From positions 1-46,532 of the forward strand of contig NZ_LXQB01000003.1 in assembly GCF_004421185.1 (NCBI RefSeq): 46,532 nucleotides of DNA. The letters run 5' to 3'. The stretch is from Methylacidiphilum sp. Yel. Lineage in GTDB: Bacteria; Verrucomicrobiota; Verrucomicrobiia; Methylacidiphilales; Methylacidiphilaceae. A program made the position numbers and the translations under genes. Below are positions 20,178-25,801 of the stretch, piece after piece. Below the pieces are notes generated by a model, which made no database searches, had not been told where the DNA came from, and saw only the letters and a list, made by a program, of their open reading frames with translations. The number at the start of each line of letters is the position of its first letter. The first letter of the stretch is position 1.

Positions 20178-20606
20178 ATGAAGCCAACGGTTTACGAAAT
20201 TGAAGAAGGGAATAAATTATTACCACGATTTGATCTCCATGAGTATTTACCTTGTATCACTCTGGATGCGGATACTGGAGAGGTGCTTATGTTAGGCTAC
20301 ATGAATAAAGAGGCTTTGGATAGAACCATAGAAACAGGATTGGCGACTTATTATAGCCGATCGCGAAAAAAAATTTGGGTGAAGGGAGAGCAATCAGGGT
20401 TTTTTCAACACGTTAAGGATATTTTTATCGATGATGATCAAGATACCTTACTTTTAAAAGTGAAAGTCGATGGCGGTGCCTCCTGTCATGTTGGTTATAG
20501 AAGTTGTTTTTATAGAAAGCTAAAAGCAGGAAGCAAAGAAGAGCTTGAATTTACTGAACAAAATAAAGTTTTTGATCCAAAAATTGTTTATAAACTTAGC
20601 TCATGA
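20178..20606 (+). CDS. hisI: Phosphoribosyl-AMP cyclohydrolase HisI
   Basis: HisI opens the purine ring of phosphoribosyl-AMP, the third step of histidine synthesis. The 142-residue protein shows the family core: MLGYMNKEALDRTIETGLAT then YYSRSRKKIWVKGEQSG, the metal-binding acid cluster IFIDDDQDTLLLKV, and the zinc cysteines in GGASCHVGYRSCFYR. It is the single-domain form without a fused HisE pyrophosphohydrolase. No other histidine gene is adjacent. Its stop and the luxC stop share the palindrome TCATGA at 20601-20606, so the two convergent genes overlap by six bases. Confidence 0.96.
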   Translation: MKPTVYEIEEGNKLLPRFDLHEYLPCITLDADTGEVLMLGYMNKEALDRTIETGLATYYSRSRKKIWVKGEQSGFFQHVKDIFIDDDQDTLLLKVKVDGGASCHVGYRSCFYRKLKAGSKEELEFTEQNKVFDPKIVYKLSS

Positions 20607-21704
20607 CTTTACATCCTGATTCTGGATTTCCCAGTCCACCCATCTCACTAAATCCTCGATCCTATTCCTTCCGTCATGATGCCAAAATGCTGAAGGCTGT
20701 TGCATTTCTCCTACAGAACAAAATCTTGTGACCCCAGCATTAATAAAGAGCCTAACAATATCATCTGGAATTGTTTCGAAAACACCTACCGTACTTATCA
20801 TACCCTGGATAGGTTTTAGCCATTCCTTTAGCTTTGTTTTGTCCACGCTGTCAACGTAAATGGTGCGATAGCCACAAGTGGGTTCAAAACTGTTGGATCT
20901 TCTATGGATTACAGTCCAGGGATTAATCTCCGTGAGACTACTTTCCCATACAGTCCAGCCCAGGGCCTTTGCACAATCCCGGAGTTGTTTAATGGCTGCG
21001 AGTTCTTCAATATTAATATCAAAGCCTTTTTCTGAGCTTCTCTTGCTCAGACTCTCCGCAAGAGCTTCGCAAAAAGAGAGGATGATGGTGCTAGGTGTGT
21101 TCTCTTCGATGAGCATTGATTGAGGAGAAAGACATCCTAATTGGTTAAAAAGACTGATATCTTTAGCGCTTAGGGTTATTTTTTCTCTGTTTATATTTTC
21201 GATTGTGCCTACCCAAATTAAGCTCACTTTATGGCCATGGCCGACAAATCGTTTGTCAGAAGGGGTCAGAGCTTTGAAATGCTCAATTGTCCTATTCCCA
21301 CCAAAAACTACAATACAATCAGACTGTTCAAAGGCTTCTTGGTTGAATTCAAAACAAAGTTTGACTTGATTTTTCAATTTTTTTGGAAGTAAAGAAATAA
21401 ATCTTAAGAGTGGTTCGGTGACCGGCTGGGGACACTGAACAACATTGAAAGAGCCTACCAGTAGCCCAAGTAAAACGCTTTGAAAACCAGCTACATATAA
21501 GTTGGCTGCCAATACATGGTATATTTGTCGTGGAGCGATAGCCTTGGTTTTCGCTCCTCCGTAATCAAAGAAGTCATCCAAAGCAGTTAAACTTTTTAAT
21601 TCCAGTTCCACAAGACGGATGAGGTCCTCTTTTCCCCTGAAGCCAATTTCTGGGAAAAGCTTGCAAATTGCATCAAGCATTTCAATTCTTTCCAAAGTTT
21701 GCAT
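20601..21704 (-). CDS. luxC: LuxC-family acyl-CoA reductase
   Basis: The 367-residue protein resembles the LuxC family of long-chain acyl-CoA/acyl-protein reductases, which make fatty aldehydes with NADPH. Supporting segments are CIVVFGGNRTIEHFKAL (nucleotide-binding region), a cysteine in SFEPTCGYRTIYV that could carry the acyl thioester, and the family ending RFCSVGEMQQPSAFWHHDGR followed by RWVDWE. The gene starts 3 bases after the luxE-like stop, so the two are coupled. No luciferase genes luxAB are nearby, so bioluminescence is not implied. An aldehyde for lipid or envelope chemistry is more plausible. The exact product is unknown. Confidence 0.82.
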   Translation of the reverse strand: MQTLERIEMLDAICKLFPEIGFRGKEDLIRLVELELKSLTALDDFFDYGGAKTKAIAPRQIYHVLAANLYVAGFQSVLLGLLVGSFNVVQCPQPVTEPLLRFISLLPKKLKNQVKLCFEFNQEAFEQSDCIVVFGGNRTIEHFKALTPSDKRFVGHGHKVSLIWVGTIENINREKITLSAKDISLFNQLGCLSPQSMLIEENTPSTIILSFCEALAESLSKRSSEKGFDINIEELAAIKQLRDCAKALGWTVWESSLTEINPWTVIHRRSNSFEPTCGYRTIYVDSVDKTKLKEWLKPIQGMISTVGVFETIPDDIVRLFINAGVTRFCSVGEMQQPSAFWHHDGRNRIEDLVRWVDWEIQNQDVKS

Positions 21705-21707
21705 CTG

Positions 21708-22778
21708 CTAACGGTGGGTGTTTTCAAAAAAGGCTATTTCTTCAATGCTTAAAGAACAACCCCTTGGGGGAGCATGATTAGATCTTCCTATAAGATAAAA
21801 TCCTTCTTGAGTTTTTATGGCTATATCGAGAGTTTGTATGCAAAGAACAGAATCGACATTGGCAAGATCTATCCAACGGACCAATCCTTTTTGGCCGACT
21901 TGACATTCTTTTTCTGTTCTAGGATCGATAACTAAAACTTTGGCCCAAGGAGGGACTAAAAATGTCCCATCAGTGCCTTTGGAATAAGCCTGACTAGATA
22001 ATTCCGTCATCCCATACTCGCTGAAGATACAGTCTTGTGTTATCCCAAAGTAAGAAGATAATTTTTGATAAAATTCTTTTTTGTCGATCTCTTTATGCTT
22101 TCCTTTCATCCCTCCGGTTTCAAGGATAAAAGAGCCTTGAGGAAGCGATAAAGATTTAGGGTGTTTTTCCATAAGTAAAACGAAGCTGAAAGCCGTTCCA
22201 CATATTCCAACGTTTCTGCCGGCTGAAATGTCCAAATTGAGTTTTTGGATAAAGGGATCAATACAAAATGTTTTGTTTTGAATCCAAAAATAGGACGGGA
22301 AAGGGTTTGATTCTGCCCAAAAAGAAAACATTGCAGAAAGGGAACTATGTGGATTTTCATTAGGAGACTCTGTTAGAAAATGAAGACATGCTCTATGGAT
22401 AGGGATAGCAGCTTCGTTAGCCCCCTGCAAAGACACAGCCTTATAGATCAATGGATCTAAAAAATAGTGTCTTCCTTGGATTCCAGAGGTGGTGCCACTG
22501 GTAAGGTAATGGCCTGCTGCCTGTTCAATGGTGTAACAAAAGATGGTTTCTTTTTTGAAAAGTTCTTGTGGAATGGCAGGAATTTCTTTCCAAGAAGAAA
22601 GGCGATTTGCAATAGTTTCCGTCAAAGTTTTATAAGCAGGGCAATGTTTTCTTTGAAAATCATATAATCTAAAAACTAAGGATTCGAAATTTTGTGGATT
22701 TTCTCGAAGGCTTAATAATTGATCTATCCACCACTGCCTGTTAGCTGGATCTTGAAAAAAACTTCTTTGGCCTTCCAT
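21708..22778 (-). CDS. luxE: LuxE-family acyl-protein synthetase
   Basis: LuxE enzymes belong to the adenylate-forming superfamily and activate a fatty acid for reduction by LuxC. From the ATG at 22778 the product is 356 residues. It contains the adenylation loop YLTSGTTSGIQGRHYF, the acid-containing segment ILETGGMKGK, and the adenine-pocket motif IFSEYGMTELSSQAYSKG, all typical of LuxE/PaaK relatives. The late segment TLDIAIKTQEGFYLIGRSNHA ends the large domain, and the usual flexible C-terminal lid is short, as in LuxE. An upstream ATG (22802) lacks a ribosome binding site, while AAAAAGGAAAG precedes the chosen one. It is translationally coupled to the reductase gene. Confidence 0.82.
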   Translation of the reverse strand: MEGQRSFFQDPANRQWWIDQLLSLRENPQNFESLVFRLYDFQRKHCPAYKTLTETIANRLSSWKEIPAIPQELFKKETIFCYTIEQAAGHYLTSGTTSGIQGRHYFLDPLIYKAVSLQGANEAAIPIHRACLHFLTESPNENPHSSLSAMFSFWAESNPFPSYFWIQNKTFCIDPFIQKLNLDISAGRNVGICGTAFSFVLLMEKHPKSLSLPQGSFILETGGMKGKHKEIDKKEFYQKLSSYFGITQDCIFSEYGMTELSSQAYSKGTDGTFLVPPWAKVLVIDPRTEKECQVGQKGLVRWIDLANVDSVLCIQTLDIAIKTQEGFYLIGRSNHAPPRGCSLSIEEIAFFENTHR

Positions 22779-22869
22779 AGCTTTTTCTTTCCTTTTTATC
22801 ATAGCGAAATAAACTACATTAAAAATATAGCGAGTTTAGAAAAAAATCCCTTTGGAATGGGAGCATAAG

Positions 22870-23112
22870 ATGCAGAACAAAGATGAGGTGACCATTTTGT
22901 CTCCATACATTTCGCTGGAAGGAGAATTGTGGGTGAGGGATAAGGCGATTGTCAATTGTCATATTCAAGGGAAAATAAGAGTGGGAGGAAAGTTGGAAAT
23001 ACTTTCTGAAGCGGTCATCGAAGGGGAAGTCTATGCGCAAGCCATTGAGATAGATTCGGGAGCTACAATAAATGGAAGAATAGTGATCGGTAAAAACAAG
23101 CTAAATAGTTAA
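22870..23112 (+). CDS. Small bactofilin
   Basis: Bactofilins are polymer-forming cytoskeletal proteins built from a right-handed beta-helix. The 80-residue product has the repeating short-strand pattern ISLEGELWVRDKAIVNCHIQ, then GKIRVGGKLEILSEAVIEGE, then VYAQAIEIDSGATINGRIVI, with glycine turns every six to ten residues. The ATG at 22870 follows TGGGAG. A TTG at 22852 would add six residues. It overlaps the next gene by one base (TAATG). It is divergent from the luxE-luxC pair, with about 90 bp between starts. Confidence 0.85.
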   Translation: MQNKDEVTILSPYISLEGELWVRDKAIVNCHIQGKIRVGGKLEILSEAVIEGEVYAQAIEIDSGATINGRIVIGKNKLNS

Positions 23113-23876
23113 TGCAACCAATCAGTTCCAAGCGATTAGATAGTAAAACACAACTTATTAGATGTCCTGCTTGTGGGCATTCTCAAGTTGAATCCAGATG
23201 GGCTCTGTCGACTATTTGTAAGAAATGCTTTCATTATATTGGGCTTGCTACAAAAAAAAACCCCGTTCCATGTCTTCCTTCTTTGCCCTCCAAGACGCGT
23301 GAAATTACCTGCCCCTACTGCCACAATTCTCAAAAAATTTATCCTCAAGCCCTTTCTGTCGGTTGTGCTTTCTGTGGGGCCTATCTTTATGTGGAAAATC
23401 TTTGCCTAAAAGGAAAGATCAGAGGAAAAATTTCGACTCTTGGAGATATTGATTTTGAGGCTGGATCGGAATATGTGGGCGCTACTGTACAGGGAAGAAG
23501 AATAAGAATCAGGGGAATAATGCAATGTTCTTTTAAAGCCACGGAAGAAGTGGAATTTTGCTCGCAGAGTGTTGTAAAAGGGATAGTGGTCGCCCCGCGG
23601 GTAATTGTGAATCGATTTTCTTCTCCCAAAGTAAAGGAAGTGATTACTTACGAGCTTATAGTGAAAGGTCAACTTGAGTGTGAGACCATTATTGCCAGAG
23701 ATTTTTTAAAAATTGAATCTTTCGGTAAGATTACGACAAAAAAAATGTTAACCAATAGGCTTGTGGCTGAGCTTTTTTCTCGGCTAGAAGCGGATTTCGA
23801 AACTTATTCGTTACTTACTCGAGATATCCAGAAAAATGGAATAGAGCTAGGAGAAGAGAGGCTCTTTTTAACTTAA
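23112..23876 (+). CDS. Double zinc-ribbon bactofilin-like protein
   Basis: The 254-residue protein combines two N-terminal zinc ribbons with a bactofilin-like beta-helix. The ribbons are CPACGHSQ with CKKC (about residues 18-39) and CPYCHNSQ with CAFC (about residues 67-88), each a pair of CxxC knuckles. From about residue 96 the short repeating strands LCLKGKIRGKISTLGDIDFE, VQGRRIRIRGIMQCSFKATE, VVKGIVVAPRVIV, YELIVKGQLECETIIARDFL and IESFGKITTKKM follow. The last 30 residues look helical. It overlaps the small bactofilin gene by one base, so the two are coupled. A role in placing the filament on DNA, RNA or another protein is possible but unproven. Confidence 0.78.
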   Translation: MQPISSKRLDSKTQLIRCPACGHSQVESRWALSTICKKCFHYIGLATKKNPVPCLPSLPSKTREITCPYCHNSQKIYPQALSVGCAFCGAYLYVENLCLKGKIRGKISTLGDIDFEAGSEYVGATVQGRRIRIRGIMQCSFKATEEVEFCSQSVVKGIVVAPRVIVNRFSSPKVKEVITYELIVKGQLECETIIARDFLKIESFGKITTKKMLTNRLVAELFSRLEADFETYSLLTRDIQKNGIELGEERLFLT

Positions 23877-24565: not shown

Positions 24566-25801
24566 TTGCCAGCCACCCAATCGCTGAGGTGCAAACTGAA
24601 GCTCCTGCTCACTAAAGAGCAGGAGGAGGCGGTGCGGTGCACGGCGTTGGCTTACCGTAACGCCCTAAATCACACATCCACTGTCGCTTTTTTGGGCGGG
24701 AAGATATCGCAAGGCAAGAAACTGCAAAGGCTGGTGTCCCAGGATTTGCGCGAAAGGTTTGAGCTGCCAGCTCAAATGACATACAACGTGCCCAGACAAG
24801 TGGCTGCGGCCTAAAAAACCCTCTGGGAACGCGCCAAAGCGGGCGCGGCCCATAAAGCGAAAGGCTGGATCGGCCCGGCGCTATAAGGGTCTCGACAAGG
24901 CATACAGATTCACTGCCATGACCATGACTTTGAACCATCGCCGGGATTGGTCCTTGGGCAAGGAACAAACGGTCAGCATGGGGACTTTGGGCGGAGGCAT
25001 CCGGTGCCGATACGAAGGATGGAACCGGCATCTGGAGAGGATGGCGCGAGCCCAGGGAGCATGGTGTCACACTGGGCGGGGCCCTGCTCTGGCAGGACTC
25101 TGCATCCAGGGCATGGTATCTGCTGGTGTCCGTCGAAAAGGCTTTGGACCGGTACCCGCAGGCCTCCATCACCCCAGTCAAGGGTGTGGACATGAACCGC
25201 CGGAACCTCGCGGTGGAATCCAATACCCAAGGCAAATGTCGTTTTTATCCTGGTGGACACCGAAGGCAACTGGCCAATCGTGCCGCCAGTAGACGAAGTG
25301 CGCTGCAAGAGAAGGGCACTTGCGGAGCCCCACGCGATGGTAGGCATGGAGGGGCTAAAGGCTATCCGTTATCGAACCGAGTGCAGACAGTCGGAGAAGG
25401 TTTTCGTCAAACGCTGCAAGGCCAACCGTAAGGGGAGCACTTGGGGTTTTGCGGAGGGGCAAGCCAAGACGGCTTACAAAATCCGGCTGCCGTTCGGAGT
25501 GCCGGTTTGGGTGGCTGCGGATTACACCAGCCAGAGACGGCCGGTTTGCGAGCATGTTGGACGGGAGAATCAGCCCAATAAGGGACTGCTGTTTGTATGC
25601 GCCCATTGTGGGTATAGGCTCCATGCCGATTTAGTGGCTGCCAGAAACATCAGCATGCGAACGCTTTTCATCTGGCAAGACTGGGTGAGGACGGGGCGAT
25701 TGTCAGCCGACCCTTAAGCATCGGGTGATGAAGCCAAAGCCGCACGCCTTTCGAGATACACGCAGCTGCGGTGGAGCCTGGATGCAAGCTCCGTCCTTTA
25801 G
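24566..25801 (+). pseudogene. tnpB: TnpB, multiply frameshifted but RuvC residues still readable
   Basis: The N-terminal segment (24566-24814) reads SLRCKLKLLLTKEQEEAV, YRNALNHTSTVAF and LPAQMTYNVPRQVAA, then stops at a TAA. Later frames continue with KGLDKAYRFTAMTMTLNHRR, EQTVSMGTLGGGIRCRYEGW, the RuvC-I region VKGVDMNRRNLAVESN, the RuvC-II region AMVGMEGLKAIRYRTE, and the zinc finger plus RuvC-III region LFVCAHCGYRLHADLVAARN. The first finger pair reads RPVCEHVG, losing one cysteine. The final frame RYTQLRWSLDASSVL ends at TAG 25799-25801 inside the right-end hairpin, as usual for this subgroup. All three catalytic acids can be read, but at least four frame breaks prevent a functional nuclease. 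Confidence 0.85.

Follow-up and report, generated by a model that had tools for sequence, protein, structure and literature searches.

A conserved gene pair of Verrucomicrobiota joins a bactofilin to a bactofilin with tandem zinc ribbons

Two overlapping genes encode a minimal bactofilin (BAC) and a larger bactofilin with two zinc ribbons at its N-terminus (ZRB), and this pair is conserved through the Verrucomicrobiota. On balance, ZRB is probably a partner-dependent hybrid bactofilin, a subunit that uses its zinc heads to recruit a client to a bactofilin scaffold. For bactofilins, which are known to act as scaffolds, few clients and few fused domains have been described, and a strictly paired module of two bactofilins, one of them with zinc heads, offers a defined handle on cargo recruitment by these filaments. 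The phylum includes methanotrophs as well as Akkermansia-related gut and environmental bacteria, and its cell biology is still poorly understood. The initial annotation of this DNA had recognized the pair and proposed it as a candidate for an undescribed scaffold; the observation is confirmed and is stronger than sequence alone could show. The paired module does appear to be undescribed: in the open-access literature searched, no paper combines 'bactofilin' with 'zinc ribbon' or with 'Akkermansia', and the titles and abstracts of the papers there on 'zinc finger', 'zinc' and 'Verrucomicrobia' describe no such protein.

Sequence and predicted structure of the gene pair

The window analyzed here, a stretch of 46,532 nucleotides, makes up contig G000:C3 in a genome of 2.25 Mb. 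BAC (22870..23112, forward strand; ATG at 22870, TAA at 23112) has 80 residues, to which an alternative in-frame TTG start at 22852 would add six, and ZRB (23112..23876, forward strand; ATG at 23112, TAA at 23876) has 254. The stop codon of the first gene and the start codon of the second share one base (23112..23112, forward strand) in the sequence TAATG, an overlap that is also present in three further members of the genus (L024, L025 and L026) and is consistent with translational coupling. Around the pair no terminator-like sites were found, and promoter-like sites occur at a frequency not clearly above chance. Both proteins score above the Pfam cut-off for Bactofilin (PF04519, 27.9 bits), BAC with 40 bits (E 4.9e-10) and ZRB with 34.7 bits (E 2.2e-8), and the two genes lie where the initial annotation had placed them.

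Structure prediction with AlphaFold2 produced beta-helix models for both proteins. The BAC model is all beta (mean pLDDT 89) and superposes on the Thermus bactofilin 6ria over 68 residues (VIA; Z 10.3, rmsd 1.7), though BAC is short even among bactofilins and covers only residues 11-79 of the Thermus chain. In the ZRB model, built from 37 aligned sequences (mean pLDDT 86.9), two ribbon modules of four strands each (residues 13-44 and 63-93) precede a bactofilin beta-helix at residues ~96-230 (23397..23801, forward strand). The helix had been proposed for residues 96-220, which are predicted as such with a block pLDDT of 94-98, and it continues to ~230 with a pLDDT of 90 for residues 221-230. 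Its portion from residue 112 to residue 215 can be superposed on 6rib, the filament structure of Thermus bactofilin (VIA; Z 12.7, rmsd 1.5, 99 residues). Foldseek by itself gave weak E-values for both models, and it was the VIA superposition that brought out the bactofilin match. For the ZRB model the tapirin adhesin 6n2b outscores bactofilin (Z 16.1); since other beta-helix proteins also match, the fold is insufficient to prove bactofilin membership, and the assignment of ZRB to the bactofilins rests on the Pfam match. Separately, the ZRBs of genus g13 (L042 and L057; family f9) have ~50 extra beta-helix residues that resemble inserted whole rungs.

Zinc ribbons and their possible ligands

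The two CxxC/CxxC zinc ribbons noted initially are real and equally spaced, each of them a CX2CX14CX2C module of 22 residues. Ribbon 1 (C18-C39; 23163..23228, forward strand) follows the pattern CPxCGxxQxE....STxC[RK]xC, with invariant Q, E, S and T residues besides its cysteines, and ribbon 2 spans C67-C88 (23310..23375, forward strand). None of the eight cysteines varies in the order-wide alignment of 18 sequences (A1) or in the phylum-wide alignment of 37 (A4). The four cysteines of ribbon 2 are present in 126/126 unique ZRBs and those of ribbon 1 in 115-117 of the 126, the remainder being gaps that include single-ribbon proteins. Ribbon 1 and ribbon 2 are themselves homologues (hhalign E 2.5e-17), and from their cysteines we infer that they bind zinc. 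Between them lies a basic linker (residues 40-66; 23229..23309, forward strand) that is net positive in 53/54 two-ribbon homologues (mean charge +4.6), varies from 25 to 72 residues in length among homologues and is modelled with a pLDDT down to ~55 in its low-confidence part (residues 45-60).

Conservation of this kind would suit a docking surface, but it could also be read as a structural cap or a zinc or redox switch that times bactofilin assembly. The cysteines are absolutely conserved amid varying surrounding sequence, ribbon 2 directly abuts the N-terminal end of the beta-helix in the AlphaFold2 model, and ribbon 2 is the only ribbon retained in Akkermansia-like genomes and several other classes, all of which a cap or switch would accommodate. 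Ribbon 1 fits this reading poorly: its additional invariant Q, E, S and T are those expected of a binding surface, and a module on a linker of such length is too loose for a cap. A role in capping or switching, instead of docking, is considered distinctly improbable.

A second alternative is that the ribbons bind nucleic acid, so that ZRB would link the bactofilin scaffold to the nucleoid, to ribosomes or to mRNA. The basic linker and the net basic ZRB helix are compatible with such a function, as is the resemblance of ribbon 2 to the ribbons of eS27 (PDB chain, E 4e-5, with eS27 remaining below its family cut-off) and Rpo12, and in Myxococcus bactofilins are reported to organize ParABS (PMC5703909). 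The ribbons themselves, however, are near neutral (mean charge +0.2 and -0.3), and the basic linkers might equally serve anionic membranes. Moreover, the profile matches of ribbon 2 are weak, and because LysW, an amino-acid carrier, scores about as well (E 1.5e-4) as eS27, they indicate the zinc-ribbon fold in general and do not discriminate between nucleic acid and protein binding. Nucleic acid binding is regarded as unlikely, though a serious rival, and the more elaborate proposal that in Verrucomicrobiota a filament with tandem zinc-ribbon heads tethers the nucleoid or the translation apparatus to bactofilins at the membrane as somewhat less likely.

The ZRB ribbons were assigned neither to eS27 nor to the ZitP ribbon family. 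The S27e profiles remain below their cut-offs (NCBIfam NF001629, E 9.3e-7, 28.3 bits against 70; PF01667, 16.9 bits against 24.5), LysW is a weak fold-level match alone, and the ZitP family (PF13719) is not listed at E values up to 1, the nearest entry being PF13717 at 0.052. The ribosomal, lysine-biosynthesis or polymerase context of eS27, LysW and Rpo12 is likewise not seen for ZRB.

Distribution and fixed pairing in the Verrucomicrobiota

The survey for proteins that combine zinc ribbons with a bactofilin domain recovered ZRB in 54/60 related genomes and across the phylum. Of 288 genomes sampled across the phylum, 97 encode a Pfam bactofilin and 83 match profile A1, four of the latter (G159, G184, G194 and G329) through a plain bactofilin only. 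Closer inspection of three genomes at first counted as having a bactofilin without ZRB (G270, G276 and G323) revealed single-ribbon ZRBs, and with these additions a hand tally of the listed rows places ZRB in ~82/97 of the bactofilin-bearing Verrucomicrobiota genomes sampled. Used by itself as a query, the window protein retrieved no relative from GTDB. GTDB contigs were instead scanned with a degenerate DNA pattern for ribbon 1, which matches once per locus, at ZRB, in 79 collected loci and whose reach is limited to ZRBs that have that ribbon, single-ribbon (ribbon 2) proteins lying outside it. The scan returned at least 118 stretches; among the 80 loci listed, an HMM identifies 79 as ZRBs, the remaining one being truncated at the end of its locus, and all 80 are titled as Verrucomicrobiota bar one record named only 'bacterium'. 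No ZRB was found on a plasmid.

The constant feature of these loci is the partner. A bactofilin gene lies immediately upstream of ZRB on the same strand in 60/61 loci sampled at the level of order, class or phylum, and in 60/60 of those with room, the sole exception being a contig end where the sequence starts 124 bases before ZRB. The same arrangement is seen in 76/76 of the listed GTDB loci with room; the two sets share some genomes, and many of the loci are of common ancestry, such that the counts do not represent independent events. The remaining neighbours vary by group: five families of the order have luxE/luxC there, some members of the class have nadA and Akkermansia-like genomes have uvrA (nadA and uvrA as named by us from their sequence, not by profile search), and no gene besides the partner bactofilin is constant across the loci examined. 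In families f2 and f4 (L041, L045, L049, L054, L056, L058-L062 and L033), an additional bactofilin gene lies downstream of ZRB in convergent orientation, which makes a cluster of three bactofilins.

The dependence within the pair appears to be unequal. ZRB was never seen without a partner bactofilin where upstream sequence exists, but three genomes of genus g46 (L232, L233 and L234, from G229, G302 and G327) keep the partner, which has an anchor-like N-terminus, with no adjacent ZRB, in what the gene arrangement indicates is a natural loss of ZRB. ZRB thus appears to be the more dependent of the two. The complete Akkermansia-like genome G166 (L239), unlike its congeners, has a single stand-alone bactofilin and no ZRB, and both members of the pair seem to have been lost together. 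These natural variants, with one ribbon, two ribbons or a partner without ZRB, open the way to direct tests.

Polymerization and membrane attachment

The phenylalanine required for homopolymerization (F105 in Thermus) sits in a GAxFVGxS motif and marks the known homopolymerizers, not all members of PF04519. In the HMM alignment this position is F in 103/113 aligned partners, compared to 24/120 aligned ZRBs; by pair, F is confined to the partner in 75 pairs and present in both proteins in 21. In the window, ZRB has Leu at this position and BAC has no alignment there. The loss of the residue from most ZRBs, along with their longer and divergent helix, could also mean that ZRB is a divergent bactofilin paralogue that has dropped out of filaments, its linkage to the partner a remnant of an old tandem duplication held together by shared transcription. 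Set against the persistence of the linkage across the phylum despite reshuffled flanks, the strict conservation of the ribbons and the loss of ZRB without loss of the partner in g46, this explanation is very unlikely.

In many other lineages the partners begin with MLKKFI/MFKKVI-type peptides (e.g., MLKKFIPQKP and MFKKVIGQ) that, compared by eye, are akin to the BacA membrane anchor, MFSKQAKS (PMC12448750). Neither protein of the window has a recognizable membrane-targeting peptide, also judged by eye, BAC beginning with MQNKDEV and ZRB with MQPISSK. Any division of labour between a polymerizing, anchored partner and a recruiting ZRB would not be uniform: 24 ZRBs retain the Phe, and the partner in the window's own family is short, starts without an anchor-like peptide and gives no alignment where the Phe would be, so that the polymerizer in this family may be the third bactofilin of the genome. 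That protein is canonical (L240 3714-4454, from G000:C78, 65417-65710), with 246 residues, a GAIFVGKS motif and a PF04519 E-value of 9e-25, and the genes beside it look, by their sequence, like an aspartate-semialdehyde dehydrogenase and a copper-type ATPase.

A client-recruiting hybrid bactofilin

The best working analogy for ZRB is BacC of Rhodomicrobium vannielii, a bactofilin-cadherin hybrid without the Phe that binds BacA via its bactofilin domain and is dispersed when BacA is absent (PMC10259793). ZRB is similarly a hybrid bactofilin, usually without the Phe (Leu in the window) and with a second bactofilin as its partner, and on the analogy with a Phe-less hybrid that needs BacA, ZRB should ride on its partner bactofilin. 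The two differ in architecture and distribution, in that BacC has a C-terminal cadherin-like domain while ZRB has N-terminal tandem ribbons, a fixed gene pair and a phylum-wide occurrence. Relative to other bactofilins such as Caulobacter BacA and Thermus bactofilin (PF04519 / IPR007607), with which BAC and ZRB have the beta-helix and the Pfam match in common, ZRB is distinguished by its ribbons, its longer helix and, usually, the lack of the polymerization Phe, and the window BAC by its shortening. Two bactofilins side by side also occur in Bacillus, where BacE and BacF are described as tandem bactofilins that act together (PMC4627819).

For the ribbons, the closest parallel is ZitP, whose zinc ribbon is a docking module for PopZ (PMC5182065). 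Both proteins place an N-terminal C4 ribbon in a cytoplasmic scaffold system, though ZitP is a membrane protein with a single ribbon of different spacing (C5, C8, C28 and C31; CX2CX19CX2C, where ZRB has CX2CX14CX2C), a DUF3426 domain and no bactofilin. The best-supported reading of the ZRB ribbons is that they bring in a client in the way that ZitP engages PopZ through its ribbon. To our knowledge, neither BacE nor BacF has zinc ribbons.

In the mechanism favoured here, one transcript would yield BAC and ZRB, and the beta-helix of ZRB would co-assemble with the partner bactofilin or, in the window's genome, with the third, canonical one. Co-assembly would display the basic zinc-ribbon heads in pairs, either along the length of the filament or at its tips, where the ribbons could dock a cytoplasmic client, and in many lineages the hydrophobic/basic N-terminal peptide of the partner would tether the assembly to the membrane. 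The linkage of the two genes need not, however, imply a physical partnership of their products.

The luxE/luxC neighbours and other surroundings

Upstream of BAC and divergent from it, on the reverse strand (20601-22802), the window carries a LuxE/LuxC-like pair, in a presumably non-luminous bacterium: a luxE-like acyl-protein synthetase (21708..22802, reverse strand; PF04443, 5.6e-13) and, adjoining it, a luxC-like acyl-CoA reductase (20601..21704, reverse strand; PF05893, 2.6e-37). The initial annotation had raised a possible link between the bactofilin pair and these genes. As a general rule such a functional link was rejected, with adjacency limited to part of one order: luxE-luxC adjoin the pair in 5 of the 8 ZRB-bearing families of the window's order and in none of the 20 loci from class and phylum level. 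Among the f4 genomes, the majority of which retain ZRB, no LuxE was detected, and in f3, part of f2 and some f9 genomes it is encoded at another place in the genome. On the other side of the pair, downstream of ZRB, lies a broken IS605-family TnpB-like remnant (24566-25717, forward strand) with split frames, the C-terminal piece of which matches PF07282 (Cas12f1-like TNB) with an E-value of 1.1e-11.
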